A stretch of DNA of 64,000 bases from Opitutaceae bacterium (GTDB lineage Bacteria > Verrucomicrobiota > Verrucomicrobiia > Opitutales > Opitutaceae): positions 1 through 64,000 of the forward strand of contig SXSC01000256.1 in NCBI GenBank assembly GCA_005792355.1, in the 5' to 3' direction. The notes beneath the pieces are model-generated. The model ran no database searches. It was not told where the DNA came from and saw only the letters and a program-made list of their open reading frames with translations. Positions within the stretch are counted from its first letter, which is position 1. Each line of letters opens with the position of its first letter. The position numbers were made by a program, and so were the translations under genes. Positions 15,134-60,507 of the stretch are shown here, one piece after another.

Positions 15134-15141
15134 TTTGCCGT

Positions 15142-15220: not shown

Positions 15221-15260
15221 GGCACTCCACCTTCACTTTTACCTTCACCTTCATTTCTCC

Positions 15261-15572: not shown

Positions 15573-15656
15573 TCAAACCCTGGAGCCGTGACGCCCCCGT
15601 CGCGGTGCTGAGCGCGCCGTGAGCGTCGCGTCCCCAGACTGAATCAAGACCCATCC

Positions 15657-17144: not shown

Positions 17145-17147
17145 GCC

Positions 17148-17576: not shown

Positions 17577-17585
17577 TTTACCCTC

Positions 17586-17885
17586 ATGCGACTCGGACAC
17601 GTCATCGGCAAGGTTACGCTTTCCCAGCAGGATCCCGCGTACCAGGGCGGCCGTTTCCTGCTCGTGCAGCCGTTCGCGAAGGAGCAGTTCAAGGGCGCGG
17701 GGATGACGCCCCTGGCCAAGGGCAACAGTCTCGTGGTGTACGACAATTTGGGCGCCGACCTCGGTCACGTGATCGGATTCACCGAGGGAGCCGAGGCGAC
17801 CGCGCCCTTTGATCGCCCGACGCCGGTCGATGCCTTTAACGCCGCCATCATCGACGAATTTTTCTACAAGCCATGCCAAAAGTAA
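17586..17885 (+). CDS. BMC-P pentameric vertex protein 3
   Basis: A 99-aa EutN/CcmL-type protein: MRLGHVIGKVTLSQQDPAYQ, RFLLVQPFAKEQFKGAG, SLVVYDNLGADLGHVIGFTE. It overlaps the start of the downstream aldolase by 13 bp in another frame, implying coupled translation. The third of three vertex proteins in this locus; PVM compartments typically carry three. Confidence 0.93.
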   Translation: MRLGHVIGKVTLSQQDPAYQGGRFLLVQPFAKEQFKGAGMTPLAKGNSLVVYDNLGADLGHVIGFTEGAEATAPFDRPTPVDAFNAAIIDEFFYKPCQK

Positions 17886-18979: not shown

Positions 18980-18990
18980 CCGCTGGTTGT

Positions 18991-19047
18991 AGGAGCGGCT
19001 TTACGCCGCGACGGAATCGCACCGAATCGCGGCATAAAGCCGCTCCT
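18991..19047. repeat. REP-like hairpin between aldolase and dehydrogenase genes
   Basis: A 21-nt inverted repeat (18991-19011 and 19027-19047) with one mismatch and a 15-nt loop; the arm starts AGGAGCGGCTTTACGCCGCG. This resembles REP palindromes known from gammaproteobacteria. It lies within the operon, before the CT-rich leader of the next gene. Confidence 0.7.
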
Positions 19048-19091
19048 GCAGTTTTCCGATCCCTTTCCCTTTCCCTCTCCCTTTCCCACTC

Positions 19092-25435: not shown

Positions 25436-28400
25436 TTATGGCGCCGTCACCGAACCGGAGCCGGAGAAGCGCTGCCAGGTGCGGGCGAAGGTCTCGTCCG
25501 GCAGCCAGTTGGCGGTCGGCTTCTCGCCGTTGAACCCGCGGTACGGCGCAATAGGTGGCGACTGCAGGCCGCCGGCGGCGCGGTCATAGTGGCCGCCCAG
25601 CCACCCGCCGGACACGGGCACGGGCGCCAGGGGCTGGCCGGGGGCGAGGCCCTGCGGGGCGCGCACGCGGAGGCACGCCTCGGCGAAGGCGATCACCATC
25701 TCGTACATCTTTGGGCGGTCGGCCGGCCAGTGGGCGGCGTCACCCGCGACCAGCAGGGAGACGGGTGCGTTTCGCTCGCTTCGTAGCGTCGCGACGGTCC
25801 GGTCCTGGTCGACGAAGAGCTTGTCCTTCTGGCCATGCATCACGAGTCCGGGACAGCGCTCGATGCCGGGGAACACCAGGTGCCAGCTCGCGCCGGATTG
25901 ATAGGAGACCCAGCCCAGGGCCCGGTCCGGCTGCAGCGCTGCCTGGAGAACGGAAAAGCCCGTGCCGTTCGAGTGGCCGAACGTGAGCATCGGCACCGTG
26001 GCGATCTCAGGATGTTGGACCTTTTCCCCGACGTTGGCCAGCAGCTCGTCGAGCGCCGCGGACGGGTAGATTCCGCGCTGGATGGGATCGCCCAGCACGC
26101 CCACGAGCGCGATCCCGTGCCGTTCTGCGAACTGGCGGAAGAACGGGTGCTCCATCATCGGTCCGCCGACGCCGTGCTCGGAGATCAGGAAGATCGCGGA
26201 GACACGGGTCGCGTTGGCGGGAAGATAAACCCGGACCACCACCTCCTCGGCCGGTAGTTCGCCATGCCTGGCGACGAAGGCGCGATACACCTCGTCGGTC
26301 AATGGCTGCTGCAGGAGTGCGGGCGCCTTGGACTGCACGGTCGTGAGGCTGTGCGAGAGCGAGATCTGCGTCGAGTAACGCACGAGCCCGGCGTCATTCT
26401 GGTTCCGCGTCATCGTCACCTCCATCGGCCCGGGTCCCGCCGGCAGGTCCAGGTGCTGCTCGCCGTAACCTGGCCGCGAGACCATCACCTTGCCCGTGGG
26501 TTTCTTTTCGGAGGTGAGCACGAACTGCCCCTGCTCATCCGTGAAGGCCCGGGCGGTGGTACCCTGCAGGACGACCTTGACGCTCGGAAGCATGTTGCGG
26601 CTGGGATCCCGGACCGTACCGCGGATGACAAACGTTTCGGCTGTGGCGAGCAGCGGGATGCGTTGGCCGAAGACCGCGCGGACCGGACCCACCAAGCCTG
26701 AAGGCGGCAGGGAGGTGCTCGTGTTGACGAAGGGGAAGACCGTGAACGAGTAGGTCCCGGGCTCAGGATTCGGGGCGCCACGACGGACCCAATCCGGCAC
26801 CGGATATTCGTCGTCCGACCCGCCGGTGTTGGCGGGCGCGATCCGCGAAGTCGTGTCGCCGGACAGCATCCGGTCGGCGAGGCGGGCCGCGTCGTCCGCG
26901 GTGAAATTGCGCGCGAACGCGTCGCCGACGAGCCGGTTGCGCCAGAGGTTGGTCACTTTGACCGTCACGGTGTTTGCGCCGGGCCGGAGCAGGGCGGTGA
27001 TGTCGCGGCGGAAGGGCGGCTTCCACAGGATGCCGGCGGCCTGGCCGTTGACAGCCAGTTCCGCGATGACTTGCACGTCACCCAAATCGAGCGCAATCAA
27101 ACGTCCGGTTGCGAGCGCATCGGCCGGGATGTCCAACGTACGCGAATACGTCGCGGTGCCGGAAAAGTGCTTCACGCCGGGCGTCGGGTGTTCGGAAAGC
27201 GACGAAAGTCGCGGCAGCGTGACCCGCACCGGCGCTCCCATCCCCGCGGGGAAGGTGATTTCCCAGTCCGCCGAGTAGTTGCGTGTCGCCGGCAGCGAGT
27301 TTACGGTGGCGGAGCGGACTACGCCGGATGCGTCGGCCGCTTCATACCGGCCCGGCGCGAACACGTCGGCCTGCAAGGCGCCCGCGGTCCATTGCAGGTC
27401 CGCGACCGCATCGTCCGTCACCAGCTGGCCGTCGCGGGCGAGCTGGTGTAGCCCCGGTGGCGTGGGGGCGGCTGCATGGTCGCGGAAGACCACGAAGCAG
27501 GATTCGGCCGGCTCGAGGTTCAGGCGCACCGCAGTGCGGCCGTCCGCTAGCCGGCGCCAGAGGGGGAGTAGACGGATCTCGCCCGATTCCGGCAGCCACA
27601 GCTCGGGGACTCGGCCGTCGACGCGCAGGACGCATTCCACGGCGGCCGGTTCGTTGCGCTGGTTGGAAAGGAAGTAGAACTCGCCGTCGGCTACGCGGCG
27701 GTGGATGTAGTCGACCCGCGGGGCCGGCGACCCAGCGGACGGCGCGACCGGGCGGTATTCGAAGTCCGGTGACAGCCCGATCTGGCGGAAGACCTCCGCG
27801 AGCTCCACGCCATGGAAAACCCGCCCGCGGCCGACAGTGTGGACGATGGGGGTGCGGCCATCGTTGTCGGTCCAGATGCGCGCGGCGAGCGCCGCAATGC
27901 CGGCGTCCTGTTCCCGCGTGTCCCGCAGACTCGGGGAGCGCTTCGGGCGCGGGCCCACGACGGTGGCGCCGGCCTCGACCAGGCGGGCGAGGTGTTCGAG
28001 CACGGGCGCCTCCATGCGGTCGTCGCTGGACAGCACGAGCACGGCGTAGGTCTGGCCATTCGGCAGCACGAGAAGACCGCGGTCGTTGACCCGGAGGTCG
28101 AGGATCACGCGGCTGTGGCCGACGTGGAAATCACGGCCGGCCGGCAGCGCGAAACCGAAGTCGGGGGCGACGTCGGCCTCGATGTCCCAGTCGACACCCT
28201 TCGGCCCGCGGGCGGTGACGCGCGGGGCGGGCCGGATCGTGGCGGGGGCGTTGTTGCCGTAGTCGACGTAGAGGTCGGTGACCAGGCGGCCGTGCTGGAG
28301 CATGAACTGGCTCCTGGCCTGGTAGGCGAGCCAGGCGCGCGCCGGCGAGAACCACGTGTTGTTGCGATTCATCTGGATGCCGTGCGGCCCGAGCGTCATG

Positions 28401-29929
28401 CCCGGACGGATATGGTCGGCCCAAGGCTGGTGGGCGCCGGCCTGGAGATAGAAGCGGTTGATCCCGCGGCAGAGGAAGTAGTCGCCCTGAGCCTTCAGCG
28501 TGTAGGGATGCCACTTCCAGGCGGCCAAGTCGTTGCCGGCGGTGAACGCCTCCGCGCCGACCACGTGGCGGCCGGAGATATCGGCGGCCGAGGCGGCGAG
28601 CTTGCCGGACCAATGGTGCCACTTGACGACGCCGGCCCAGAATTCGCCCATCGGGATGTCGGCGTGGAGGTTGTTGGCGAACTCGTCGAAGAAGGTCCCG
28701 TAGTAGCCGTAGCCTTCGAGGGCGAGCTTCAGGTGGCGCTGGCGGCACTTCTCGGCGAAGACCTCGTAGTAGTTCTCCGCGACGAGGTCGGCGAGCGTGC
28801 GGCGGTAGTCCCAGAGAAAGCGTTCCGTGTCCCGCAGGTCGCCGACGACCCGTCCGGTTAGGCAGGGCAGGAAGCGGGTCAGGTCGTACGCGCGCAGCCG
28901 CCGGAATTCCTCGGGCATGCGCGGCGTCCACGTCTGCGTGAGCGCCTCGTAGCTGTCGATCATGACAGTGTTGACGCGTCCGCCGGACGAACGCGTGGCC
29001 GCAGCGAGGATGAGGTCGACGAAATGCCGCCAGTGGAACTCGGTCGCCTCGCGACTGAGCTTGTCGGATTCGAGGCCGCGCGCGCCGGTGGTCGGCGATT
29101 CCCGGTTGGTGTGGCCGGTCAGGGTATAGCCGAAGCGCAGGATTGTCCACTCGCCCGGCGGCGCGTTCCAGTCGAGCGTGCCGTTGGGACGCATGTGTTC
29201 GGTCAGGAGCACGATCTTTGTGGAATCGATGACGGCGCCCGCCGGGGCGGGGCCGGCCTGTTCACGCTGGTTGCGCGCCGTGCGGAAGCCCGCCTTTTCC
29301 TGCCACTGATCGAGTCTCCAGCCGGGCTCGGCGGGAGTAGGGAACGCCAGCACCGTCACGTCGCGGTAGTAGTCGTGGCCCTCTTGATACCGGCCGGGCG
29401 GGCCGACCTCCTCGAGTGGGCGGACTCGGGTGGAGGGGCGCGGCAGGGGGACCGACACGCGGCGGCCGCCAGCGACGGCCTGCTCGCTCCAGGTCAAGTG
29501 TTTCATTGCCTGATCCTCGGTGATCCACGGGCCGCCAGACGACGACCAGCCGGGGCAATTGTGGAATCCGAACTCCAGTCCGAGCCGCGCGCACTCGGCG
29601 CTCGCGAAAGCGATGAGGTCGAGGTGCTGCTTGCTGAGATACCGCACCGGCCCCTCGGGGATCCGGTCCGATTCCTCGAACAGTATTACGCCCCCAAACC
29701 CGGCGTCGCGGAAGGCCTTCAGGTCCTTGACGATTCCGTCGCGCGAAATGTTGCCGTTCATCCAGTGCCACCAGAGCTGGGGCTTGGCGGCGTCGGGCGG
29801 GCGGGGAAAACCGCGCGCCAGCTCATCGACCGTGGCGGCTTGCAGGCCGGCCAGGCACAGCGCCAGCGCGACGAGCACGGCCGGCCAGTGGTCGCGGCGA
29901 AGGAATGAGGCAGGGGAGAGGCACGACAT
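25436..29929 (-). CDS. GH106-type alpha-L-rhamnosidase fused to an alpha/beta-hydrolase esterase
   Basis: A 1497-aa secreted protein; this Met gives a Sec signal (DHWPAVLVALALCLAGLQAA). Residues ~35-1095 are GH106-like: PQLWWHWMNGNISRDGIVKD, FHNCPGWSSSGGPWI, TVMIDSYEALTQTWTPRM, VVGAEAFTAGND and a C-terminal galactose-binding-like module with VKVTNLWRNRLVG. Residues ~1100-1180 form a carboxypeptidase-regulatory-like Ig domain (IRGTVRDPSRNMLPSVKVVL). Residues ~1180-1497 are an alpha/beta hydrolase with nucleophile motif FGHSNGTG (Ser ~1320), Asp in GQKDKLF and His in GDAAHWP. It would remove rhamnose and possibly an ester from the same polymer. The fusion is not a standard GH106 layout; it is followed downstream by the maturase remnant. 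Confidence 0.88.
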   Translation of the reverse strand: MSCLSPASFLRRDHWPAVLVALALCLAGLQAATVDELARGFPRPPDAAKPQLWWHWMNGNISRDGIVKDLKAFRDAGFGGVILFEESDRIPEGPVRYLSKQHLDLIAFASAECARLGLEFGFHNCPGWSSSGGPWITEDQAMKHLTWSEQAVAGGRRVSVPLPRPSTRVRPLEEVGPPGRYQEGHDYYRDVTVLAFPTPAEPGWRLDQWQEKAGFRTARNQREQAGPAPAGAVIDSTKIVLLTEHMRPNGTLDWNAPPGEWTILRFGYTLTGHTNRESPTTGARGLESDKLSREATEFHWRHFVDLILAAATRSSGGRVNTVMIDSYEALTQTWTPRMPEEFRRLRAYDLTRFLPCLTGRVVGDLRDTERFLWDYRRTLADLVAENYYEVFAEKCRQRHLKLALEGYGYYGTFFDEFANNLHADIPMGEFWAGVVKWHHWSGKLAASAADISGRHVVGAEAFTAGNDLAAWKWHPYTLKAQGDYFLCRGINRFYLQAGAHQPWADHIRPGMTLGPHGIQMNRNNTWFSPARAWLAYQARSQFMLQHGRLVTDLYVDYGNNAPATIRPAPRVTARGPKGVDWDIEADVAPDFGFALPAGRDFHVGHSRVILDLRVNDRGLLVLPNGQTYAVLVLSSDDRMEAPVLEHLARLVEAGATVVGPRPKRSPSLRDTREQDAGIAALAARIWTDNDGRTPIVHTVGRGRVFHGVELAEVFRQIGLSPDFEYRPVAPSAGSPAPRVDYIHRRVADGEFYFLSNQRNEPAAVECVLRVDGRVPELWLPESGEIRLLPLWRRLADGRTAVRLNLEPAESCFVVFRDHAAAPTPPGLHQLARDGQLVTDDAVADLQWTAGALQADVFAPGRYEAADASGVVRSATVNSLPATRNYSADWEITFPAGMGAPVRVTLPRLSSLSEHPTPGVKHFSGTATYSRTLDIPADALATGRLIALDLGDVQVIAELAVNGQAAGILWKPPFRRDITALLRPGANTVTVKVTNLWRNRLVGDAFARNFTADDAARLADRMLSGDTTSRIAPANTGGSDDEYPVPDWVRRGAPNPEPGTYSFTVFPFVNTSTSLPPSGLVGPVRAVFGQRIPLLATAETFVIRGTVRDPSRNMLPSVKVVLQGTTARAFTDEQGQFVLTSEKKPTGKVMVSRPGYGEQHLDLPAGPGPMEVTMTRNQNDAGLVRYSTQISLSHSLTTVQSKAPALLQQPLTDEVYRAFVARHGELPAEEVVVRVYLPANATRVSAIFLISEHGVGGPMMEHPFFRQFAERHGIALVGVLGDPIQRGIYPSAALDELLANVGEKVQHPEIATVPMLTFGHSNGTGFSVLQAALQPDRALGWVSYQSGASWHLVFPGIERCPGLVMHGQKDKLFVDQDRTVATLRSERNAPVSLLVAGDAAHWPADRPKMYEMVIAFAEACLRVRAPQGLAPGQPLAPVPVSGGWLGGHYDRAAGGLQSPPIAPYRGFNGEKPTANWLPDETFARTWQRFSGSGSVTAP

Positions 29930-36851: not shown

Positions 36852-38293
36852 CCCTCGTGCGCTTCGTGCTCCTTCTGGTCTGCGCCGGCTTCGCGGCCCG
36901 CGCGGCCGACCCTGCCGCCGACCCGCTCGCGCTGACCCCCGCCGTTACGAAGTACGCTTCGATTCAAGAGGCGCTGGACCGGAACCCGGGCCGCCAGGTG
37001 TACCTTCCCACCGGCGATCACGAGATCAGCGAGGTCCTGAAGATCACGACTCCCAACTCCGGACTCTGGGGCCCGGGTCGCATCATCCAGACGAACCCCG
37101 AGGCCGCCATCATCGATGCGCGCGGCGCGAAGGGGATCCAGCTCCGGGGGTTCACGCTCACGCGCGCCGAGGGCCGGCAGGAGTCGCGCCAGTCGGCCCT
37201 GGTCGTCGAGCGATGCGAGAACGCCGTGATCGACAGCGTGCAGGTCCTCGATAACTGGGCCAACGCGAGCGCGGTCTCCGTTACGGAGTGCGACCGCGTG
37301 CAGGTCAGAAACTGTCTCGTGCGGAACTACTCCCGCATCGCGATCGACGATCGCACGAAGACTTCCTTCCTCGGCTACGCGTTCCGCTGCATCGACGGCA
37401 CCGGCATCACTGTCCGCCACTCCCAGGGCGGACTGATCGCGCACAACCGCGTCGTCGAGCTGCGCATGCGCCCGACGCCGGAGCTCAAGGCCGAGCACGA
37501 CCTCGGGAAATTCGTGAAGAAGAACGCCACCAAGGGCTGGCGCGTGTCGCAGGAGATGTGGGACTCCGAGTACTTCAACGGCTGGCACCAAGGCTCGGCC
37601 ATCGTGGTGACAAGCGGGGAGCGCAGCGACCACACTCGCGTCATCGGCAACTACATCGAGAATGCCGCCCAGGGGATCGATATCCACTCCGACCATACGA
37701 TCCTCGCGAATAACATCATCAACAACGCCTTCATCGGGATGAAGGCCATCCACGGGTCGCGCAACACACTTATCCTGGGGAATCAGTTTTCTCGCAGCGA
37801 CCTCTGGGCCATCGGGCTGATGCCCGGCACGGCCTCGCATGAGGCGGGAGTCGAGGTCGAGCTCTCGGGCGGGCGCAAATCGAGCGCGGTGGCGAACGTC
37901 GATGGCTATTCAGTCGTCGCCAACAACATCATTTCCGACTTCGGTTATGGCGACGCCCACTGGAACTGGAGCATCGACACCTCCGGGCTGGCCCCGCTGC
38001 GCTTGGGTTCGCCCGGCTTCGCCGCGAACGGCAAGCCGCCGGTCCGCGACGTCCTCGTCCTCGGCAACATCATCCAGGACACCGGTCGTGACGGCGTCAT
38101 CGTCGACGGCCAGGCCAAGATCGAGCCCCCGCGCTATCGGTACGCCGTGAAGATCGCGCCCGGCGCGGACGCCCCGCTGGGCGTCAGGTTCGGCGCCAAT
38201 ATTTTCCATCCCGGCACCGAAGGTGTCGCCGACGCCCCGTTGACTTCTCCTGATCCCCCACTCGGCGTACGGCCCACTTCACCCGTCCCATGA
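36848..38293 (+). CDS. Secreted right-handed beta-helix protein, paralog 2
   Basis: A 481-aa tandem paralog of the preceding gene, overlapping it by 4 bp: same signal peptide design (MTLVRFVLLLVCAGFAARAA) and the same blocks SGLWGPGRIIQTNPEAAI, RNYSRIAIDDRTKTSFLGYA, TPELKAEHDLGKFVKKN, SEYFNGWHQGSAI, NAFIGMKAIHGSRNTLILGN and MPGTASH. Its own stop overlaps the symporter start (ATGA). Co-translation suggests the two act together, perhaps as a heteromer or on successive linkages. Confidence 0.85.
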   Translation: MTLVRFVLLLVCAGFAARAADPAADPLALTPAVTKYASIQEALDRNPGRQVYLPTGDHEISEVLKITTPNSGLWGPGRIIQTNPEAAIIDARGAKGIQLRGFTLTRAEGRQESRQSALVVERCENAVIDSVQVLDNWANASAVSVTECDRVQVRNCLVRNYSRIAIDDRTKTSFLGYAFRCIDGTGITVRHSQGGLIAHNRVVELRMRPTPELKAEHDLGKFVKKNATKGWRVSQEMWDSEYFNGWHQGSAIVVTSGERSDHTRVIGNYIENAAQGIDIHSDHTILANNIINNAFIGMKAIHGSRNTLILGNQFSRSDLWAIGLMPGTASHEAGVEVELSGGRKSSAVANVDGYSVVANNIISDFGYGDAHWNWSIDTSGLAPLRLGSPGFAANGKPPVRDVLVLGNIIQDTGRDGVIVDGQAKIEPPRYRYAVKIAPGADAPLGVRFGANIFHPGTEGVADAPLTSPDPPLGVRPTSPVP

Positions 38294-39807
38294 TTCCCGG
38301 TAACCTCACCGTCGCCGACATCCTCATCGTCGTCGCGTATTTTGTCGGCACCGTCTGGCTCGGTGCCCGCTTCAGCGGGCGGCAGAAGAGTTCCTCGAAC
38401 TACTTCCTCGGCAATCGCAACCTGCCCGGTTGGGCGGTGGGCTTGTCGATGTTTGCCACCATCACTTCGAGCTGGGCTTTCCTTGCCCTGCCGGCGAAGG
38501 CGTTCGCGAGCGACCTCCAATACCTGATGGCGGTCTCGGCGATCCCGATCGCGGCCTGGATCTCGGTCCGGTGGATCGTGCCGCTTTTCCGCGAGCGCAT
38601 CCGGCTCAGCGCGTATGAATACCTCGAGCACCGGTTCGGTCTCGGCGCGCGGATCTACGGCAACCTGGCTTTCCTCATCGTCCACTTCGGCAAGATGGCG
38701 GCGATTTTGTACCTCCTCTGCCTCGCCATCGCGGGGATCACTGGCTGGAACATCTTTTTGCTCATCGCCGTGGTGGGCATCTCCACCGTGGCCTACACGA
38801 TCGTCGGCGGCATCGAAGGCGTCGTCTGGACCGACGTGGCGCAGGGTTTCCTGCTCCTGTTCGCCGGCGTGGTCGCGCTCGGGTTCATCATTTTCGGCGG
38901 CGTCGCCGACGCCGGGACCGTCCTCGGCACCGCTTGGGACGCGGGCAAGTTCAAGCTGATCAACACGAACTTTTCTTGGACCAGCTCGAACACGCTCGTG
39001 CTCGTGTTCTTCGGGCTCAATTTCTACCTGCAGAAATACGTAGCCGACCAGACGGTGGTGCAGCGCTACCTGCTCGCCTCGACAACGGCGCAGGCGGGAC
39101 GCGCCCTCTGGCTGTCGTCGTTCCTGCTCATGGGCGTCTGGCTCCTGTTCATGTCCGTGGGGGCGGTGCTCTGGGCCTATTACCAGGCGGGCAATGGAAC
39201 GGTGCCGCCGGAGGTGCTGGCCAAGCCGGATCGCGTCTTCCCGTACTACATCGGCCACGGCATGCCAGCGGGCATGCCTGGCCTGATCCTCGCCGGCCTG
39301 CTGGCGGCCACCATGTCGACTCTGGCATCGGACCTCAACAGCTTGAGCGCGGTGGCATACGACGACTATTATCGACGCCTTCGGCCCAAGGCGAGCGATG
39401 AGGAGCACCTGAAATTCTCGCGGCGCGTCGTGCTAGTTGCAGGTCTCTTGGGGGTGGCGGTGGCGATGGCGATGACCCGCGTCCATTCGATGGCAGACGC
39501 GGCGTTCGATTTCGTCTCCCTCGTCGGTGGTGGCGTGCTCGGCATGTACCTGCTCGGCATCCTCGTGCCGCGCTGCTCGAGCCGGGCGCTGTACGTCGGG
39601 TTGGTCGTGGGCGTGGCCTTCGTGCTATGGGCCACGTTCTGCGGGCGGGGCGAGACTGCGCTGCCGGCGTTGCCGCGCTTCCCGCTGCACACCCTCTGGG
39701 TCGGCCTGCTCGGCAACGTCGTGGTCTTCGCCTGTGGCTTGGCGACCAGCTTCATCTGGCCGGCGCTGGTGAAGGCGGCTCCAGCCCGCGAGGCCGTCCC
39801 GGCGTGA
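38290..39807 (+). CDS. Sodium:solute symporter (SSS family)
   Basis: A 505-aa carrier with ~13-14 TM helices. SSS signature elements: SSSNYFLGNRNLPGWAVGLS, SAYEYLEHRFG, GGIEGVVWTDVAQGFLLLFA, YVADQTVVQRYL, AATMSTLASDLNSLSAVAYD. Placed between secreted beta-helix proteins and cytoplasmic sugar-acid enzymes, it likely imports their product (an oligomer, sugar or sugar acid). Coupled by ATGA to the preceding gene; unlike the SSS gene at 1.6-3.1 kb it has no small partner ORF. Confidence 0.92.
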   Translation: MIPGNLTVADILIVVAYFVGTVWLGARFSGRQKSSSNYFLGNRNLPGWAVGLSMFATITSSWAFLALPAKAFASDLQYLMAVSAIPIAAWISVRWIVPLFRERIRLSAYEYLEHRFGLGARIYGNLAFLIVHFGKMAAILYLLCLAIAGITGWNIFLLIAVVGISTVAYTIVGGIEGVVWTDVAQGFLLLFAGVVALGFIIFGGVADAGTVLGTAWDAGKFKLINTNFSWTSSNTLVLVFFGLNFYLQKYVADQTVVQRYLLASTTAQAGRALWLSSFLLMGVWLLFMSVGAVLWAYYQAGNGTVPPEVLAKPDRVFPYYIGHGMPAGMPGLILAGLLAATMSTLASDLNSLSAVAYDDYYRRLRPKASDEEHLKFSRRVVLVAGLLGVAVAMAMTRVHSMADAAFDFVSLVGGGVLGMYLLGILVPRCSSRALYVGLVVGVAFVLWATFCGRGETALPALPRFPLHTLWVGLLGNVVVFACGLATSFIWPALVKAAPAREAVPA

Positions 39808-40914: not shown

Positions 40915-42384
40915 ATGAAACTTCCCCGCATGCATCGCCGTTCATTCCTCAAGCGCGCGGGCGTCGCCTTCGGAGGCACGCTGGCCGCGGTCCTTGCGCC
41001 CTCCGTCTGGTCCGCCGTGCCGGGCGCCAATGGCGACATCCGCGTCGCTATCATCGGCCTCGGCAACAAGGGCAAGCAGCACATCGAGGTCTTCAGCCAG
41101 TTGCCGGGCGTCCGCCTCGTCGCCATCTGCGACGTCGATCCGAAACGCCTCGCGGAGCAGGTGGAGAAGCTGAAGGGCCGGAACCTCCAGCCGATCGCCG
41201 TGACCGACGCGCGCCGCATCCTCGAACGCGACGACATCGACGCGGTGGTGGTCTCCGCTCCCAATCACTGGCACGCGTTGTTTGGCATCTGGGCCTGCCA
41301 GGCCGGGAAGGACGTCTATGTCGAGAAGCCGATTTCCCACACGATCGCCGAGGGCGAGGCATTGCTGAAGGCGGCGAAGAAGCACCAGCGGATCATGCAG
41401 TCGGGCACGCAGTACCGGTCGGACGTTGGCCTCCGCGCGGCAGCCGCCTGGCTCGGCGAGGGCCCCATCGGCCGTCCGAAATGGGGGCACGTGGTGTGGT
41501 TCGAGCGCCGCGACACCATCGGGCGCGTGGCGCCCTACACGCCGCGGGGACTCGACTACGATCTGTACTGCGGACCGTCGGCGCTGGCGCCGCTGACCCG
41601 CACGAACCTCCACTACGACTGGCACTGGGTCTGGTCGACGGGCAACGGAGACCTCGCGAACAGCGGCATCCACGCGTTCGATGTCTGCCGGTGGTTCGCC
41701 GGCGAGCCGGGTTTTCCGCGGCGCACCCGCACGATCGGCGGACGCTTCGCCTGGGACGACGCCGGGCAGACGCCGAACACGTCGCTAACGCTCCTCGAGT
41801 TCCCGCGGGTCCCGATGATGATTGAGATCCGCAACCTGCCGCAGCAGGCGGGTCTCCGGGCCATGGATACGCACTTGGGCATCCGCGAGGGCATTGCGCT
41901 GCATTTCGAGGGCGGCCGGTTTGTCGGCCTGCGCGGCGGCGGCGTGATCTACGACAACGACGGCAAGCGCGTCCGTGATTTCGCGGGCGACGGCGGCGCC
42001 GGGCACGCGGCCAATTTCATCAAGGCCGTCCGCAGCCGGCGGGCCGAGGAACTCCAGGCCCCGCTCGCCGAGGGCCATGCGTCCAGCTCCGCCTGCGAAC
42101 TGGGCAACATCTCCTGGCGGCTCGGCCGCGCCGCCACCGTGGCCGAATGCCGCGAAGCAGTCGGAGCGCACCCGGGTGCGGCCGAGGCGCTCGCGGCCCT
42201 GGAGAAGAACGTGGTCGCCAACGACGTGTCGCTGGAGCGGCAGCCGTTCGCGCTCGGACCCTCGATCGAATACCGCGACAGCCGCATCCAGTCCGTGACC
42301 GGCGGGAAACGGGACGCGCTGGACCGGGCCCGCGCCTTGGCGCGCGGTGCGCCGCGCAAGCCTTATGAGATCCCGTATCTCTGA
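40915..42384 (+). CDS. Gfo/Idh/MocA-family oxidoreductase 2 (Tat-exported)
   Basis: A 489-aa protein starting MKLPRMHRRSFLKRAG, a strong Tat signal. The cofactor motif is VAIIGLGNKGKQHIEVF, the EKP motif VYVEKPISHTIAEGE, and the substrate region LHYDWHWVWSTGNGDLANSG with IHAFDVCRWF. This is the long, exported Gfo/Idh subgroup common in Planctomycetes, Verrucomicrobia and Bacteroidetes, some members of which are NAD-dependent glycosidases (GH109-like). It follows the first Gfo/Idh gene by 22 bp. Confidence 0.9.
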   Translation: MKLPRMHRRSFLKRAGVAFGGTLAAVLAPSVWSAVPGANGDIRVAIIGLGNKGKQHIEVFSQLPGVRLVAICDVDPKRLAEQVEKLKGRNLQPIAVTDARRILERDDIDAVVVSAPNHWHALFGIWACQAGKDVYVEKPISHTIAEGEALLKAAKKHQRIMQSGTQYRSDVGLRAAAAWLGEGPIGRPKWGHVVWFERRDTIGRVAPYTPRGLDYDLYCGPSALAPLTRTNLHYDWHWVWSTGNGDLANSGIHAFDVCRWFAGEPGFPRRTRTIGGRFAWDDAGQTPNTSLTLLEFPRVPMMIEIRNLPQQAGLRAMDTHLGIREGIALHFEGGRFVGLRGGGVIYDNDGKRVRDFAGDGGAGHAANFIKAVRSRRAEELQAPLAEGHASSSACELGNISWRLGRAATVAECREAVGAHPGAAEALAALEKNVVANDVSLERQPFALGPSIEYRDSRIQSVTGGKRDALDRARALARGAPRKPYEIPYL

Positions 42385-42405: not shown

Positions 42406-43215
42406 ATGGTTTCATCACAGTGCAGTGAAGCGCGGACGGCCGTGGGCCATCGCCTAAGGCTGCTTCCCACGGGCCGGCTCAAGGTGCCGGCGCCACTGGT
42501 GTATTGGATGCGCCGATTCGCGGACTGGGTCGATCTCGAGTTCCAGTTGGGGCTGATCCAGGGGGACGGCAAGACTGTCGTCGTCAACACCGGGTTTCCG
42601 CGCGACACCGACCAGCTGGCGGCCGGCTGGCGGGAGCGGCTCGGTCCGTCCGCCGTACTGGAGCGCCGCCCGGAATGGGAACCGGCGACGGCCCTGCCGG
42701 CCGCCGGGGTCGATCCGGCGACGGTCGATTTCGTGGTCATCACGCCACTCCAGATCTACGCCACCGGCAACCTGCGGCTTTTCCCGAAGGCTCGGATCTG
42801 CGTGTCGCGCCGCGGCTGGATCGAGGACGTGATGGCGCCGTCGACGCCACGGCACATGCCCCGCGCGCGCTGCATCTCCGACGACGATTTCCACTGGCTG
42901 CTCGGCGAGGGACGGGACCGGCTGCTCCTGCTCGATGACGTGCATGAACTGCTGCCCGGCCTCGTGTGCCGCTGGGCGGGAGTGCACCATCGATCGTCGC
43001 TGCTCGTGGAGGTGTCGACCGCGCGGGGGCTGGCGATCCTGTCGGATTGCGCGTTCCACTTCGCCAATGTCGAGGAGGATATCTCGCTCGGCATCGCCGA
43101 GAGCGTCCTGGAGGGCCGCGCCGTCTACGCCGACATTCGGCAAAGGGCCCGACACTTTCTTCCGCTCTGCGAGCCTCTGCTGCGGCAGCGTTACCCGGAC
43201 GGTGTCGTCGCATGA
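42406..43215 (+). CDS. MBL-fold protein lacking the HxHxDH metal motif
   Basis: A 269-aa metallo-beta-lactamase-fold protein resembling N-acyl-homoserine lactonase-like members: VVVNTGFPRDTDQLAAGWRE, VDFVVITPLQIYATGNLRLF, LLLLDDVHELLPGLVCRWAG, HHRSSLLVEVSTARGLAILS, SDCAFHFANVEE. Where active enzymes have THxHxDHxG, this one has TPLQIYATG, so His, His, Asp and His are all replaced; the later His and Asp survive. It may be a metal-free lactonase, a one-metal enzyme or a non-catalytic partner. Between oxidoreductases and an aldolase, a sugar-lactone role is plausible (inference). A GTG start 6 nt upstream is possible. Confidence 0.8.
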   Translation: MVSSQCSEARTAVGHRLRLLPTGRLKVPAPLVYWMRRFADWVDLEFQLGLIQGDGKTVVVNTGFPRDTDQLAAGWRERLGPSAVLERRPEWEPATALPAAGVDPATVDFVVITPLQIYATGNLRLFPKARICVSRRGWIEDVMAPSTPRHMPRARCISDDDFHWLLGEGRDRLLLLDDVHELLPGLVCRWAGVHHRSSLLVEVSTARGLAILSDCAFHFANVEEDISLGIAESVLEGRAVYADIRQRARHFLPLCEPLLRQRYPDGVVA

Positions 43216-44126
43216 ACCTGCCGTCCGGCATCATCCCGATTCTTCCGACGCCGTTCACCGCGGACGACCGGATCGACGTCGCCGCCTTGCGCGGCCTGGT
43301 CGACTTCGCGGTGGAGGCCGGCGCGGCCGGCGTGGGCACGCCGGCGTTCGGCAGCGAATTCTACAAGCTCGATGCCGCGGAGCGGACCGAGGTTATCGAA
43401 ACCGTCCTGTCCCAGGCGGCGAACCGGCTTCCCGTGATCGTGCAGTGCAACCACACCTCGCCGCGGGTGGCCGCCCGGCTGGCGGCGGACGCGGCGAAAC
43501 GGGGCGCGTCGGCGATCAACACCGCGCTGCCGCGTGCCTTCGCGGTCTCGACGCGGCAACTGGAGGATTTTGCCCGGGAGGTGTGCGACGCGGTCGCCCT
43601 GCCGGTCATTGTGCAGGACTGGAATCCGTCGGGTGAATCGGTGGACGCGGCCTTCGCCGTCCGGCTGCATCGGCGCTGCGGGAACTTCCGGGCCTTGAAG
43701 CTCGAGGAGCCAGGCATCGGGCCGGTGATCCGCGCGATCGGGGAGGAGACCGCGGGGCACGTCGGCGTCTACTCCGGCTGGGGTGGCCTGCATCTTCTGG
43801 AACTCCAACCGGCCGGCGCTCGCGGAGCGATGCCGGGACTGGCGGTGGCCGATGTGCTGGCGCGGGTCTGGAACCTCGGCGCGGCCAGGCGCGATCCGGA
43901 GGCTTTCGCGTTGTTTGCCTCCGTTTCTCCTTACCTGCAATTCAGCCTGCAGACCTTCGAGCAGTTCCACCACGCCGAGAAACGGCTCCTGGTCGTGCGC
44001 GGTCTCCTGAAATCGGCCGCAGTCCGTTCCGTGACCATCGAGCTTGGCGAGGATGCCGGGCGCTATCTGGACTGGCTTCTCGTGCACCTTCAGCCGATGT
44101 TCAACGTCCCGCGCGCCGCCATCTGA
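43212..44126 (+). CDS. DapA/NanA-superfamily aldolase or dehydratase
   Basis: A 304-aa (beta/alpha)8 class I aldolase family member. The N-terminus GIIPILPTPFTADDRIDVAA is typical; the Schiff-base Lys is in FRALKLEEPG; the phosphate/carboxylate loop region is GTPAFGSEFYKL. The YNxP motif of true dihydrodipicolinate synthase is VQDWNP, as in many sugar-acid members. With dapL present for lysine synthesis, this is more likely a 2-keto-3-deoxy-sugar-acid aldolase acting with the downstream rhamnonate-dehydratase-like enzyme (inference). Coupled by ATGA to the MBL-fold gene. Confidence 0.85.
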   Translation: MNLPSGIIPILPTPFTADDRIDVAALRGLVDFAVEAGAAGVGTPAFGSEFYKLDAAERTEVIETVLSQAANRLPVIVQCNHTSPRVAARLAADAAKRGASAINTALPRAFAVSTRQLEDFAREVCDAVALPVIVQDWNPSGESVDAAFAVRLHRRCGNFRALKLEEPGIGPVIRAIGEETAGHVGVYSGWGGLHLLELQPAGARGAMPGLAVADVLARVWNLGAARRDPEAFALFASVSPYLQFSLQTFEQFHHAEKRLLVVRGLLKSAAVRSVTIELGEDAGRYLDWLLVHLQPMFNVPRAAI

Positions 44127-45733: not shown

Positions 45734-46786
45734 ATGAGGATCACAAGAATCGAGGGTTTCTACCGCGACAACGAGAACGCGAGGAAGGCCTGGCAGCGGA
45801 AGTTCTGGCAGTTCGGAGTCGAGGTCCACACCGACGCGGGCCTTACCGGGCTCGGAGTGGGCGGGGCCGGCATGGCGGGCCTCGAGGTGGTGCGCCACGC
45901 GCTGGCCCCGGCGCTGGTCGGACGGGATTCGTGCGAGGTGGAGGCGCGCTGGGACGAGATGTATCGCGCGACGCTGCCCTTCGGACGCCGCGGGGTCGCG
46001 CTGATGGCGATGAGCGCGATCGATCTCGCGCTGTGGGACCTGGTCGGAAAGGTGCGCGGCCAGCCGGTCTGGCGCTGTCTGAACGACCGCGCGCCGGCCC
46101 GTATCCGGAGTTATGCGACCACGCCGCACGTGGAGGCCTGCCGGGACCTCGGTTTCCAGGCGTTCAAGCTGCCCGTGAGCGAGGGGCCGGCGGACGGCGA
46201 GGCGGGACTGGAGCGGCTGGAGCGAAAGGTGGCCGCGGCCCGTGCGTCAGCCGGGGCGGATGTCCCGTTGATGATCGATTGCTGGATGGGATGGGACCTC
46301 GGCCATGCCAGCCGGGCGATCGAGCGGCTGGCGCCGTATCGTCTCGCATGGATCGAGGAACCCCTGCCGCCCGACGACCTGGCGGAATACCGCGAACTCG
46401 GTGCACGGGCGCGCGCCGCCGGCACGCGACTCGCGGCCGGTGAACACGAGTACGGCTGGGCCGGCTTCCGTGACTTGCTCGAATCCGACGCCGTGGCGGT
46501 CTTGCAGCCGGACGTCACGTGGTGCGGCGGACTCACGCCGGCGCTCAAGGTCTGGCGTGCCGCCGAGGCCGGAGGCAAGGTCATGGCGCCACACCGCGGG
46601 GGTGAGGTTTGGGGCCTGCACCTTAACTTCGCCTTCGGCGGACAATGGGCCGAATGCGTCTGCCTGGACGGCCACTCGGAGGACGACCCGCTGGTCGAGG
46701 GTGCGCCGGTCTGCTGCGACGGTTTCTTCGCGCCGCCCGAGGCGCCGGGCTTCGGCGTCCGCTGGCGCAAGGGCGTCTGGGGCTGA
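45734..46786 (+). CDS. Mandelate racemase/enolase-type sugar acid dehydratase (rhamnonate-dehydratase-like)
   Basis: A 350-aa enolase-superfamily protein. Metal ligands appear as Asp in PLMIDCWMGWDL, Glu in WIEEPLPPDDLAEY and Glu in LAAGEHEYGW; the general-base pair is Asp in VLQPDVTWCGGLTPALKV and His in MAPHRGGEVWG. The stretches GEHEYGWAGF, QPDVTWCGGLT and the start (RKFWQFGVEVHTDAGLTGLG) resemble L-rhamnonate dehydratase more than mandelate racemase. It would make 2-keto-3-deoxy-L-rhamnonate or a similar acid for the upstream aldolase. Close relatives act on other sugar acids, so the substrate is not certain. Confidence 0.85.
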   Translation: MRITRIEGFYRDNENARKAWQRKFWQFGVEVHTDAGLTGLGVGGAGMAGLEVVRHALAPALVGRDSCEVEARWDEMYRATLPFGRRGVALMAMSAIDLALWDLVGKVRGQPVWRCLNDRAPARIRSYATTPHVEACRDLGFQAFKLPVSEGPADGEAGLERLERKVAAARASAGADVPLMIDCWMGWDLGHASRAIERLAPYRLAWIEEPLPPDDLAEYRELGARARAAGTRLAAGEHEYGWAGFRDLLESDAVAVLQPDVTWCGGLTPALKVWRAAEAGGKVMAPHRGGEVWGLHLNFAFGGQWAECVCLDGHSEDDPLVEGAPVCCDGFFAPPEAPGFGVRWRKGVWG

Positions 46787-49542: not shown

Positions 49543-50349
49543 TCAGCTCCGCCCGCGCTGCGCGGCGCCGCCGGGCGGCAGCCTTTGGCCGGCGGTGAGG
49601 CCGCCGTCGACGAGGAGATCGGCGCCGGTGATGAAGGCGGCATGCTCGGAGGCAAGAAAGACAACCGCGGGCGCGACGTCAGCTCCGGTGCCAGCGCGGC
49701 CGAGTGGCGTGCGCTCGTGCGGCGGGATGCGGCTGAAAACGGCGCGGAGGCGGGCATCCTTGACGATGTCGGTCGCGATCGCGCCCGGCGAGACGCTGTT
49801 CACGCGGACGCCGTGCCGCCCCAGCTCGAGCGCGAGCCCGCGGGTGAGGAGATTGATGCCCGCCTTCGAGGCGGAGTATCCCACCTTGTGGTCGCCGGAG
49901 AGCGTCGCGGAAATCGAGGAGATGTTGACGATGCTGCCCGCCCCTTGCGCGACCATCCGCCGGCCGGCGGCGCGGCAGAAGAGGAAGTAGCCTTTCAGGT
50001 TCACCGTCATCATGCGGTCCCATTCGGCCTCGGAAAGATCGAGCGCGGGCTTGAGCGTGGCGACGGCGGCATTGTTGACGAGGAGATCGAGCCGCCCCCA
50101 GGCCTTGACGACAGCGGCGACCGCTCGGTCGACATCGCGGGCGCGGGACGCGTCACCGGGCAGGGCCAGCGCACGGCCCCCGGTCCGGCGGATGGCGTCC
50201 GCGGTCTTCCGCACTCCGGTACGATCCAGGTCGAAGCACGCCACCGCGGCTCCGGAAGCGGCGAGCGCGAGTGCGGTGGCCCGGCCGATGCCGCGGCGGC
50301 TGCCGGCGCCGGTGACGAGGGCAGTGCGCCCCGTGAGGTCGATGTGCAT
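49543..50349 (-). CDS. Short-chain dehydrogenase/reductase
   Basis: A 268-aa classical SDR. The cofactor motif is TALVTGAGSRRGIGRATALA (one extra residue in the glycine loop), NNAAVATLKP, catalytic Ser in NISSISATLSG and the YxxxK motif in VGYSASKAGINLL. The C-terminal tail VDGGLTAGQ is normal. An acidic FDLDR after strand 2 favours NAD+. Located with the dehydratase and aldolase, it may oxidise L-rhamnose/fucose or 2-keto-3-deoxy-rhamnonate (inference). Bases 50350-50524 after its start hold no clear gene. Confidence 0.9.
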   Translation of the reverse strand: MHIDLTGRTALVTGAGSRRGIGRATALALAASGAAVACFDLDRTGVRKTADAIRRTGGRALALPGDASRARDVDRAVAAVVKAWGRLDLLVNNAAVATLKPALDLSEAEWDRMMTVNLKGYFLFCRAAGRRMVAQGAGSIVNISSISATLSGDHKVGYSASKAGINLLTRGLALELGRHGVRVNSVSPGAIATDIVKDARLRAVFSRIPPHERTPLGRAGTGADVAPAVVFLASEHAAFITGADLLVDGGLTAGQRLPPGGAAQRGRS

Positions 50350-57084: not shown

Positions 57085-60000
57085 TCAGCGCCGCGAGAAG
57101 GAGAGGGGATAATCCTGCTCAACGAAGACGCGGACGGGGCCGAGCAGGCCGGATGGCTGGAGCGACTCGAGGTCGCGGTTCCATTTGCCGAGCGTTAAAA
57201 GCTTCGTCTGAAATTGCTTCGGCCGCGGGCCCTCCGGGAAGCAGTCGGGGAATTTCAGATCGCCGATGATTCGGTTGCGCCAGAGGTTCGAGGTCCGGAT
57301 GGACAGCGGGTTGGCACCGGGCTGGAGCAGCGACGTCACGTCGAGCCGGTACGGCGGCAGCCAGGCGGTGCCGGCGGGGCGGCCATTCACGCTCACCTCG
57401 GCGATCACCTCGACCCGGCCCAGTTCCAGGACCACGCGGCGGCCCTTGGCCAGCCAGTCCGGTGGAACGGTCAGCGTATGTTCGTAGGTGGCCGTGCCGG
57501 AAAAATGCCGGACGGCCTGGTTCGAGTGCTCGGACCACGAGATGAGGCGCGGCAGGGAAACGGAACTCGGCGTATCCATTCCCGCGGGGAAGTGGAGTTG
57601 CCACGGGCCGTCGAGCGTCCGGGGCGGGGGCAGGTCGCGGACGTCGAGCACGAGCGCGCCACCCTCCGTCGGCTGCAGGCGGTAGGAGCCGTTCGCGGCG
57701 ATCCGGGCCACCGCTGCGTCCCCGTCGCGTTCGACGCGGGTGACTGTATCCGGGCGGCCATCACGGAGAACGCTCGCGATGCCGACGGCGGGCTCGCCGC
57801 GCGGAAACACCACGAAGATCGATCCGCGCGGGCCGAGCGAAAGGTCGACGCGGGTCCTGCCCTCGACGGGAGCGAAGCGGGCGCTGCGGGAAATGAGGCC
57901 GGTCGCCGCATCCCACAACTCCGGCGCGCGGCCGGTCTGGCGGAAGACCGGTGACAGGGTGAGGGGCTCGCTCGACTGATTGGACAGGAAATAGATCTCG
58001 CGGTCAGGGGTCGTGCGGTGGACCCAGCGCACGCGTTTCGGTTCGATGCCAGCGACGTCGGGTCCGAGCCGGAGGTGCCGGAGTGTGCCCACGACATCGT
58101 TGCCTCCATATATATTAGGATGTCGGCCGGACCACACGTCGGCCGCCAGTTCGCGGACGCGCGCATCGCTCGCAGGATAGCCCGCAAGGCTGGGCGAACG
58201 TTCCGGGGCGGGGCCGAGGATCGCGCCACCGGCGGCGGCGAGCTCGCGAAGCTTTGCCAGCAATTCCGGGCGCATGGTCCGCCGGTCGGGCAGGACGAGG
58301 AGCGAATAGGACGTGCCGTCGGGCAGAATGAAGCGGCCTCGCTCGACGCGCAGACGGGTCTGGATCACCTCCGCGTTGATGTAGTCGAACGCATGGCCGT
58401 CGGGCACGGCGGGCTGGGTCGGCCCAGTCATGGCCGGCGTGTCCTCCCCGATGAACACCGCCACATCGGCCGCGTTCTGTCCGGTCTGGAGCAGGAGGTG
58501 GCAGCGCTGCAGGTACTCCGTCCAGGCGCGGCCGGATGCGAACCAGGTGTTGTGACGGTTGAACTCTGTGCCAAACCACGCGTTGGTGCCGGGGCGTGAT
58601 TCGTCGGGCTGGTGCATCGACACCTGGATGATCAGGTGGTTGACGCCCTCGGCAAAGGCCCAATCGCCGCGCGCCTTCAGCGCATAGGGATGGTAGTCGA
58701 AAAAGTCGGCGGACGTGAACGCCTCGCCGTAGGTGACCGGCAGGCCGTACGTGTGCGACGCCGAGGCCGCGCCGCGGCACTCGATGTCGCCGAGGTCCTT
58801 GCCGGCCCAGAACTCGCCGCTGAGCATGTCGGCCTGCCCGCCATATTGCAGGAATTCGCCGGGGAATCCCCAGTGTCCGTAGTTCTGAAGCCACAGCTTC
58901 ATCCCCGCTTCACGGGCGATCGCCCGCAGGCCCCCGGCGTAATCGTACGAGACGCGGTCGGCGACCAGGCGGCGAAGATCCCAGAGGAACCGGTCGGACT
59001 GGTCCGCGGAGCCGACCACCCGGCCGGACAGGACCGGCAGCCAGGGGCGCGGATCGTAGCCGAAGGTGCGGACGAAACGGGCGGTGTTGTCGTCGGTCCA
59101 GTTCTGCGAACCGACTTCGTAGCTGTCGACGGCCAGATACTTGAAGGCGACCCGATCCTCCGCGAGAAGGCGGTCGCGCACCCGCCCAACGTAGGCGTCG
59201 AAATGCTGGCGAAGCGCCGTGCGGTTCATCTTGTCGACCTCGAGGCCGGTGGCGTGGGGCGCGGCCGGGTGATTGGTGATGCCGGTCGGGCTCATGCCGA
59301 TCCGCAGCAGCACCCAATCGCCGACCGGGGCGGTCCAAGTGAGGCGTCCGTCCGGGCCGATCGACGAAGTGAGATCGATCACGCGGGTCGGATCGGTCAC
59401 CAAGGCTTCCTCGATGCGGTCGGCGCGGGCCGGCCACTGGTAATCGTTCCATAGCGGCTTGGGCGTCGGATGGAGCTTGGCGAGCTGCTTCTCCATCATC
59501 CGCTCGACGCGCGGCGCGGCGGAAAGCTCCAGCTCGGCGATGCCGGCCTTCGGCTCGGTGGGCGCGGGGGTGTCGAGGAACTCGGCGTTGGGGTCGCGCG
59601 TGCTGATGTCGGTCAGCACGAGCCGCCAGCCCGCGGCCGTGACCGGGGGAAAAGAAATCGCGACCGGGGCATGCGGCACCGGCCCGACATTGGGCCGGTT
59701 GTTGCTCCGATCGACTCGGAACCGCCGCACCGTCTCGTAGGAGCCGTCCGGCTTGGCCGCCTGGAGCTCGGCGTTGAGGGTAAAATCCGCCTGGCTCGGG
59801 TGCAGCGTCAGACTGCGGGCGATGAACGGGCGGTCCGCGGTGAGCGTCAGGGTCCACTCCGATCGGTCGGGCGGGAATCGCAGCACGGTCGCGCGGTTGC
59901 CGTCGAGCAGCCACCGGAGGTCATCCAGTGCGCCGGGCGCGTCGACGCGGGGAGCGAGCTGTTGCAATTGGACGCCATCCTCAGCGGACACCGGCACGGC

Positions 60001-60507
60001 CAGCGTCGCGACGTCCTGGAAATCGGCGCGCGGCGCGGGCAGGTTTCCCTGGAAAGTCCGGCCGCCGGCGACCCGGGTTTCGCTCCAGGTCAGGAAACGC
60101 ATCGTCTGCGCCGGCGAGACCCAGGGGCCTCCGGTCTGACTCCAGCCGGGACAGTTGAAAAATCCGACCTCCAGTCCGAGGCGGCGTGCCTCGCGGATCG
60201 AGAAGGTGGTGAGTTCAAGCCACTCGTCGCCCAGGACGGGTACCTTGCCCACGGGTAGCTCCGGCAGGTGGATGTTGCCGATGATCACCGTGCCGATCCC
60301 GAAACGTTGCAGCGCCTCGAGGTCGCGCGTGATGCCGTCGCGCGACGTATGGTGATTCATCCAGTACCAGAAACACCACGGCCGCGTCTCGGGCGGCGGC
60401 GTGCGGAAGCGGGCCGGGAGGTCGTCGCCGGTCGCGGCGAGCGCGCCGACAGTGAACGCCGTCCCGACTAGCAGGGAGGCGACGACTCGACCGGGGAACG
60501 CAGGCAC
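57085..60507 (-). CDS. GH106-type alpha-L-rhamnosidase
   Basis: A 1140-aa secreted enzyme (signal VVASLLVGTAFTVGALAA) of full GH106 length without C-terminal additions. Shared GH106 blocks: PWCFWYWMNHHTSRDGITRD, FFNCPGWSQTGGPWVSP, LAVDSYEVGSQNWTDD, VTYGEAFTSADFFDYHPYAL, FSGTATYEHTLTVP and RTSNLWRNRIIGD. It differs from the fused copy at 25.4-29.9 kb by an inserted galactose-binding-like region (about 200-330). It releases alpha-L-rhamnose from a polysaccharide. It follows the IclR gene by 15 bp. Confidence 0.9.
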   Translation of the reverse strand: MPAFPGRVVASLLVGTAFTVGALAATGDDLPARFRTPPPETRPWCFWYWMNHHTSRDGITRDLEALQRFGIGTVIIGNIHLPELPVGKVPVLGDEWLELTTFSIREARRLGLEVGFFNCPGWSQTGGPWVSPAQTMRFLTWSETRVAGGRTFQGNLPAPRADFQDVATLAVPVSAEDGVQLQQLAPRVDAPGALDDLRWLLDGNRATVLRFPPDRSEWTLTLTADRPFIARSLTLHPSQADFTLNAELQAAKPDGSYETVRRFRVDRSNNRPNVGPVPHAPVAISFPPVTAAGWRLVLTDISTRDPNAEFLDTPAPTEPKAGIAELELSAAPRVERMMEKQLAKLHPTPKPLWNDYQWPARADRIEEALVTDPTRVIDLTSSIGPDGRLTWTAPVGDWVLLRIGMSPTGITNHPAAPHATGLEVDKMNRTALRQHFDAYVGRVRDRLLAEDRVAFKYLAVDSYEVGSQNWTDDNTARFVRTFGYDPRPWLPVLSGRVVGSADQSDRFLWDLRRLVADRVSYDYAGGLRAIAREAGMKLWLQNYGHWGFPGEFLQYGGQADMLSGEFWAGKDLGDIECRGAASASHTYGLPVTYGEAFTSADFFDYHPYALKARGDWAFAEGVNHLIIQVSMHQPDESRPGTNAWFGTEFNRHNTWFASGRAWTEYLQRCHLLLQTGQNAADVAVFIGEDTPAMTGPTQPAVPDGHAFDYINAEVIQTRLRVERGRFILPDGTSYSLLVLPDRRTMRPELLAKLRELAAAGGAILGPAPERSPSLAGYPASDARVRELAADVWSGRHPNIYGGNDVVGTLRHLRLGPDVAGIEPKRVRWVHRTTPDREIYFLSNQSSEPLTLSPVFRQTGRAPELWDAATGLISRSARFAPVEGRTRVDLSLGPRGSIFVVFPRGEPAVGIASVLRDGRPDTVTRVERDGDAAVARIAANGSYRLQPTEGGALVLDVRDLPPPRTLDGPWQLHFPAGMDTPSSVSLPRLISWSEHSNQAVRHFSGTATYEHTLTVPPDWLAKGRRVVLELGRVEVIAEVSVNGRPAGTAWLPPYRLDVTSLLQPGANPLSIRTSNLWRNRIIGDLKFPDCFPEGPRPKQFQTKLLTLGKWNRDLESLQPSGLLGPVRVFVEQDYPLSFSRR

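Follow-up and report, generated by a model that had tools for sequence, protein, structure and literature searches.

The window, by which we mean the whole 64,000-nucleotide stretch of DNA analyzed here, carries at positions 42406..43215 of the forward strand an uninterrupted open reading frame for a 269-amino-acid protein with a predicted metallo-β-lactamase (MBL) fold. A GTG codon at 42442 may be the true start, which would give a protein of 257 amino acids, matching most of the clade A homologs described below. The MBL fold is usually recognized by its metal site. A preliminary description of this DNA had pointed out that TPLQIYATG stands where THxHxDHxG is expected, and residues 113–121 (42742..42768) do read this way, within the longer stretch ITPLQIYATGN at residues 112–122. 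As a result, P114, Q116, Y118, and A119 occupy four ligand positions. HxH is absent from the whole protein, whose histidines lie at residues 15, 150, 163, 180, 194, 195, 218, and 250. The later His and Asp had been described as kept, which holds for the ligand H194 in HHRSS (residues 194–198; 42985..42999) and for D214, at the bridging-Asp position in DCAFH (residues 214–218; 43045..43059), but not for the last ligand His. The P[AS]HDP of intact relatives corresponds here to PLCEP (residues 253–257; 43162..43176), in which Cys255 replaces the ligand His. All of these elements are on the forward strand.

Judged by sequence domain models alone, kinship of the protein with the MBL superfamily appears weak. 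In a Pfam scan at E ≤ 1 it matched PF00753 (Lactamase_B) alone, at 15.6 bits and E 0.015, below the gathering cut-off of 22.7; the family member at locus L004 scored 16.7 bits against the same cut-off, and the member at L017 (the same gene as L002) had no Pfam match at E ≤ 0.1. The NCBIfam AttM/AiiA lactonase models matched at E 0.004 and 0.034, far under their cut-offs. The kinship is clear from tblastn matches to intact-motif relatives and from a profile search of PDB sequences, in which the Pseudomonas poae N-acyl-homoserine lactone (AHL) lactonase 8x78 came first at E 3e-13. It is strong by predicted fold. An AlphaFold2 model built from our family alignment (A3) has a pLDDT of 84.6 and a pTM of 0.85, with low confidence at residues 148–157. 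AHL lactonases rank first when this model is compared with known structures by Foldseek and VIA-align, led again by 8x78 (Z 28.8, rmsd 2.3, 243 residues aligned); further down are 4-pyridoxolactonase (Z 26.0), methyl parathion hydrolases (Z about 22), and LACTB2 or SMB-1 (Z about 15). The protein is thus predicted to have the MBL fold of the lactonase subgroup.

Several neighboring genes appear suited to sugar-acid catabolism. On the forward strand, a sodium:solute symporter (SSS) gene (38290..39807) is followed by a gene for a Gfo/Idh-type oxidoreductase (40915..42384), directly upstream of the MBL-fold gene, whose best NCBIfam match is a glycoside 3-dehydrogenase family, below cut-off. Downstream is a gene for a DapA-family (PF00701) aldolase or lyase (43212..44126), 57–60% identical to the DapA genes of L004 and L021, two further loci of the MBL-fold family. 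The two genes had been described as translationally coupled, and the stop codon of the MBL-fold gene indeed shares a 4-base ATGA overlap with the ATG start of its DapA-family neighbor (GCATGAAC). A gene for a β-helix protein and then one for an enolase-superfamily sugar-acid dehydratase (45734..46786) follow; the best NCBIfam match of the latter is L-rhamnonate dehydratase, at 249 bits versus a cut-off of 393. A short-chain dehydrogenase/reductase (SDR) gene lies 6 kb on, on the other strand (49543..50349). Its product has Lra1 (L-rhamnose 1-dehydrogenase) as its sixth-best NCBIfam match, at 210 bits versus a cut-off of 400, and is the SDR of this genome that best matches the SDR of locus L018 (40% identity).

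Three further features of these neighbors can be recorded. DapA enzymes usually carry YNxP, whereas the DapA partner, which keeps its lysine (K163), has a QDWNP motif that is also present in L004 and L021; to judge from these residues, its chemistry may also be altered. Upstream of the symporter gene, a tandem pair of β-helix genes (35433–36851 and 36848–38293) overlaps by 4 bases, and their products are 56% identical to each other. An 823-amino-acid protein encoded at 46888–49359 has no Pfam match at E ≤ 0.001.

Distribution and Conservation of the Motif-less Family

A first search of 57 genomes, comprising the source genome and its relatives, returned one full-length homolog with 40% identity (genome G032), which is likewise motif-less (VTPLTAYATGG), plus a fragment in G018. 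A two-row profile then matched 10 of 384 genomes in a class-wide sample. Seven of these matches are motif-less and three (G083, G094, and G099) keep THxHxDH. Two further loci were added: L004, from a Verrucomicrobiaceae metagenome-assembled genome (MAG), and L005, which is truncated by the contig end and comes from a MAG labeled Planktomarina, a label that may be a binning error. Further samples (matches in 4 of 387, 2 of 223, 2 of 145, 2 of 147, 1 of 62, and 2 of 184 genomes) returned the same members along with G956 and a weak match in G661. All of these genome tallies are lower bounds, as only part of the first-look candidates was scored. Neither a plasmid search by tblastn (E ≤ 1e-6), nor a viral-contig scan, nor a single-sequence scan of genome contigs with the window protein found a relative.

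G956 is apparently the same contig as L004, as each is 30035 bases long, and the pair enters the count once. The G661 match (L025, E 2.6e-16) and the degenerate G018 fragment (L003) are excluded, giving a set of nine loci that form two clades. Clade A comprises seven (the window, L004, L005, G293, G306, G310, and G330), with 53–60% identity to the window protein, and clade B two (G032 and G118), with 38–39% identity. The motif-less members come from several families of the class. The family appears to be rare and so far unrecognized: the open-access papers searched included none on rhamnonolactonase, or on rhamnono- together with metallo-β-lactamase, and a broader survey, covering the available portions of such texts, held no description of a motif-less family. 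In PMC8857213, which deals with how Verrucomicrobiota use rhamnose and fucose, the word “lactonase” occurs zero times in the main text.

The preliminary description had proposed aligning homologs to learn whether the loss of the motif is conserved, and the alignment A3 shows that it is common to all nine family members. This alignment holds the nine family rows and four intact rows, two of them halves of one protein, from three genomes. In every family row the first ligand His is Pro, the second is Gln or Thr, the Asp is Tyr, and the third His is Ala. The last ligand His is replaced in all eight rows that reach its column, by Tyr in seven and by Cys in the window protein; the L005 row ends earlier. 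In total, five of the seven usual metal ligands are replaced alike across the family, while the positions of H194 and D214 are kept in 9/9 rows. In VDTG, Asn takes the place of the second-shell Asp in 9/9 family rows, whereas 4/4 intact rows have the Asp. Among the residues that are invariant in the family but missing from the intact rows are N61, Y118, T120, R153, H195, R196, S197, and E232. Position 218 is His in eight members and Cys in one.

A phylogenetic tree separates the nine family rows from the four intact rows at 100/99 support, and therefore one loss of the motif suffices to explain the distribution. The outgroup of this tree consists of the four intact rows, two of which are flagged as long-branched, and the root is not fixed. 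Values of dN/dS range from 0.05 to 0.23 in the five computable pairs of six, and are only rough because dS (0.9–3.3) is near or beyond saturation and the sixth pair could not be computed. The coordinated loss of ligands is therefore shown to be conserved across the family, with signs of purifying selection.

It had been held earlier that intact motifs in the homologs would mark the gene as a product of simple decay; instead, all nine loci are motif-less and dN/dS is low. Decay of an ordinary MBL gene, which the motif change itself and the degenerate fragment in G018 might have suggested, has virtually no probability given the same substitutions in 9/9 loci, the low dN/dS, and open frames without stops. 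Because its homologs elsewhere in the Verrucomicrobia have undergone the same loss and belong to operons for the breakdown of a sugar, probably rhamnose, we regard the gene as a member of a maintained family rather than a decaying gene. The motif observation marks a conserved family and is of greater interest than one decayed gene would be. As a separate observation, the G018 fragment (G018:C32:18703-18918) derives from a clade-B-like copy, and this genome shares its genus with the window.

Operon Context and the Probable Sugar

Genes at the fetched loci were called by a composition-based script, and only part of the neighbors was scanned against family libraries. Within this scope, an enolase-superfamily dehydratase gene lies near the MBL-fold gene in all nine loci, an Lra1-like SDR gene in eight (directly upstream on the same strand in six), and a DapA, RraA, or FAH gene in five. 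The gene order in L004 and G306 is SDR, MBL-fold gene, dehydratase, DapA, RhaT; in G330, RraA follows the dehydratase of the same initial trio, and G310 has the trio. G293 has a regulator, the MBL-fold gene, RraA, SDR, dehydratase, RhaT, a second SDR, and an FAH hydrolase, whereas L005 has GH78, dehydratase, and the MBL-fold gene before the contig ends. Both clade B operons (G032 and G118) run SDR, MBL-fold gene, second SDR, dehydratase, and an acetoacetate-decarboxylase-family gene, and G118 also has GH78. The acetoacetate-decarboxylase-family gene kept in both (L016:6771-7571 and L017:11814-12593; 82% identity) is an observation in its own right.

Of the Lra1-like SDRs at loci other than the window, three were scanned (L018, L004, and L016), and each has Lra1 as its best NCBIfam match; the remaining SDRs were placed by their identity to these (63–86% in clade A, 68% in clade B). 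L-rhamnonate dehydratase is the best NCBIfam match for the clade A dehydratases scanned (L018, L004, and the window), and gluconate/galactonate dehydratase for the one scanned from clade B (L016). The FAH protein of G293 best matches 2,4-didehydro-3-deoxy-L-rhamnonate hydrolase. RhaT is present in three loci and GH78 in two. Pfam cut-offs were passed by RhaT (PF06379, in L004), GH78 (PF17389, in L005 and L016), and GH106 (PF17132, in the window).

The association with the dehydratase is also seen from the other side. Ten of 369 genomes match the L004 dehydratase at E ≤ 1e-90. The four with a dehydratase 70–84% identical to it (G293, G306, G310, and G330) all carry the MBL-fold gene in the same operon, adjoining the dehydratase gene in three and separated from it by two genes in G293. 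In the six with a 44–48% identical dehydratase, the fetched flanks hold no copy of this MBL-fold gene and the neighbors differ; in G216 the contig ends near the dehydratase gene. Two other genomes, G000 and G118, carry the MBL-fold gene with more distant dehydratases that give no match at E ≤ 1e-90. Replacement of the MBL-fold gene by an amidohydrolase in orthologous operons was not evident, as only one of those six loci (L074) has an Amidohydro_2 gene nearby, with one gene between.

A counterpart with an intact motif exists in G083, whose genes run symporter, sugar-acid dehydratase, MBL, DapA, SDR. This MBL protein (L084:2492-3250) passes PF00753 and resembles the window protein in its operon slot, with a sugar-acid dehydratase on one side and DapA, then an SDR, on the other. 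Unlike the window protein, to which it is 24% identical, it keeps THLHCDH, GGH, AGD, and PSHD. The G083 dehydratase is nearest to arabinonate dehydratase, so the substrate may differ while the slot is equivalent; Lra1 was not among the 25 best matches for its SDR. In G099, the closest intact relative by sequence, there is no such operon on the 7.6-kb contig.

The family therefore sits in nonphosphorylative sugar-acid operons, in which an SDR, a dehydratase, and a keto-deoxy-acid gene are co-located. The conserved neighbors and the intact-motif MBL in the equivalent G083 slot lend support to the earlier placement of the gene in a sugar-acid operon with a lactone-opening slot. From its gene content, the operon sugar is probably L-rhamnose; it is probable only, because all NCBIfam rhamnose matches fall below their curated cut-offs. 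The low rank of Lra1 for the window SDR and the position of that gene on the other strand also count against this reading, as do the best match of the clade B dehydratase and the matches of the dehydratase and SDR of G083. Two genes for GH106 α-L-rhamnosidases, both on the reverse strand of the window (25436..29878 and 57085..60507), provide substrate context. Three sulfatase (PF00884) genes lie around the rhamnose-related genes (34022–35422, 50525–51988, and 53816–55309), suggesting a sulfated rhamnose-containing polysaccharide.

The window also holds, at 13595–20018, a bacterial-microcompartment locus with genes for acetate kinase, a BMC shell protein, two EutN proteins, aldehyde dehydrogenase, a class II aldolase, and lactate/malate dehydrogenase. 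Its content fits the L-fucose and L-rhamnose type of locus known from Planctomycetes and Verrucomicrobia, for which passages of PMC4207490 and PMC8857213 describe the class II aldolase as the signature enzyme. Because this kind of locus is tied to a phosphorylative rhamnose and fucose route, rhamnose need not pass through the MBL-fold operon. Indeed, the known microcompartment route consists of isomerase, kinase, and aldolase, which argues that a second means of using rhamnose is available to the organism. Such a microcompartment could conceivably also handle the pyruvate and L-lactaldehyde that the nonphosphorylated L-rhamnose route yields, according to the available part of PMC3870299.

Candidate Roles of the Family

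Based on fold, ancestry, and operon slot, lactone opening is the best-supported role. We give roughly even credence to the proposal that the family carries out this step in the nonphosphorylative breakdown of a 6-deoxysugar, probably L-rhamnose, using a remodeled pocket that lacks the di-metal site. The SDR would oxidize the sugar to an aldonolactone, the MBL-fold protein would open it to the aldonate, and the enolase-superfamily dehydratase would convert the aldonate to a 2-keto-3-deoxy acid, to be broken down by DapA, RraA, or an SDR/FAH pair. The protein would descend from metal-dependent MBL-fold lactonases, the di-metal site having been lost, most simply once, before the two clades split. 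Its pocket would combine the retained H194 and D214 with the invariants N61, Y118, H195, R196, and E232; water might, for instance, be activated by a His-Asp or Glu base while Arg or Tyr polarizes the carbonyl. The pocket geometry is based on alignment columns and general knowledge of the fold, and we infer the substrate, the catalysis, a metal-free site, and what the named residues do.

The loss of five of the seven ligands counts against catalysis, and we know of no metal-free MBL-fold hydrolase. It is possible, though somewhat doubtful, that this family is a natural example: a lactonase lineage that gave up its di-metal center and rebuilt an acid-base site without leaving its type of slot in the pathway, while another genome keeps an intact-motif counterpart in the equivalent place.

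These genomes also encode lactonases of other families (E ≤ 1e-10), with PF04909 in 8/9 (none in G306) and PF08450 in 7/8 (none in G118), and thus a different gene may take care of the lactone step. G306 and G118 each have the other of the two families, and none of the eight genomes searched for both families lacks both. In addition, pentonolactones are described in part of PMC9795676 as opening spontaneously, albeit slowly. Together these points leave room for a noncatalytic or different function. By binding the lactone, or the SDR, dehydratase, or DapA enzyme, the protein could serve as a scaffold, a chaperone, or a sensor of the lactone, with lactone opening occurring spontaneously or elsewhere. 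The loss of five of seven ligands and the gene overlap with DapA in the window fit such a partner, as do the other lactonases of these genomes, and MBL-fold pseudoenzymes are known, such as INTS9, in which HxHxDH is NYHC (PMC7980224, in the portion available). However, polar invariants at or beside the old ligand positions (Y118, H194, H195, R196, and D214) and E232 count against such a partner, and the next downstream gene varies (DapA, dehydratase, RraA, or SDR) while the invariant residues do not. We therefore consider a noncatalytic role unlikely.

The retained acid-base residues could instead serve another metal-free step in the pathway, such as isomerization of a 1,5- to a 1,4-lactone, mutarotation of the sugar or keto-deoxy acid, or some other acid-base step. 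Among the neighbors scanned, only L016 has a mutarotase-like gene (below cut-off), and the problem of lactone form exists, since L-fucono-1,5-lactone may turn into the 1,4-lactone, as stated in part of PMC13406643. Nevertheless, the closest relatives by structure hydrolyze lactones and an intact MBL occupies the equivalent slot in G083, which makes a different step decidedly unlikely. Poorer still are the prospects of a metal-dependent lactonase with a new mononuclear site formed by H194 and D214 with H195, H218 (Cys in one member), or E232. Both H194 and D214 are invariant, and His or Cys at position 218 would be a ligand-type residue, but the second-shell Asp is Asn in 9/9 rows, Pro, Tyr, and Ala occupy the old site, and an adjacent His pair such as H194-H195 seldom binds one metal through both residues.

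Comparison with Known Systems

The proposed lactonase reading places the family closest to the AHL lactonases (AiiA, AiiB, GcL, and the P. poae enzyme 8x78), which resemble the window protein in predicted fold along almost its entire length (Z 25.9–28.8, 232–246 residues) and share with it one His and the bridging-Asp position. The window protein differs from them in sequence (13–20% identity), in lacking HxHxDH and the last His, and in its setting in sugar catabolism operons. Another MBL-fold lactonase, 4-pyridoxolactonase (3aj3 and 4keq; Z 26.0), is a metal enzyme of a catabolic pathway, but is only 16–17% identical to the window protein.

The same kind of step, lactone opening between a dehydrogenase and a dehydratase, is carried out by the cog3618 L-fucono-1,5-lactonase and by SMP30 aldonolactonases. 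These enzymes have folds other than MBL, and the window protein matches neither profile (PF04909 and PF08450) at E ≤ 1. The assignment of L-fucono-1,5-lactonase to the cog3618 amidohydrolases (Hobbs 2013) is as cited in the available portion of PMC13406643. INTS9 and CPSF100 resemble the family as MBL-fold proteins that lack the HxHxDH ligands or are called catalytically impaired, again in the portion of PMC7980224 available. However, these are eukaryotic RNA-processing subunits with a β-CASP domain and an active partner, from a distant branch of the superfamily.

Against this background, the family supplies a candidate for the lactonase of these Verrucomicrobial operons. A bacterial family that has lost the usual metal site and yet is kept in catabolic operons provides a direct test of metal-free catalysis on the MBL fold, for which the intact MBL in the equivalent G083 slot is a natural comparison.
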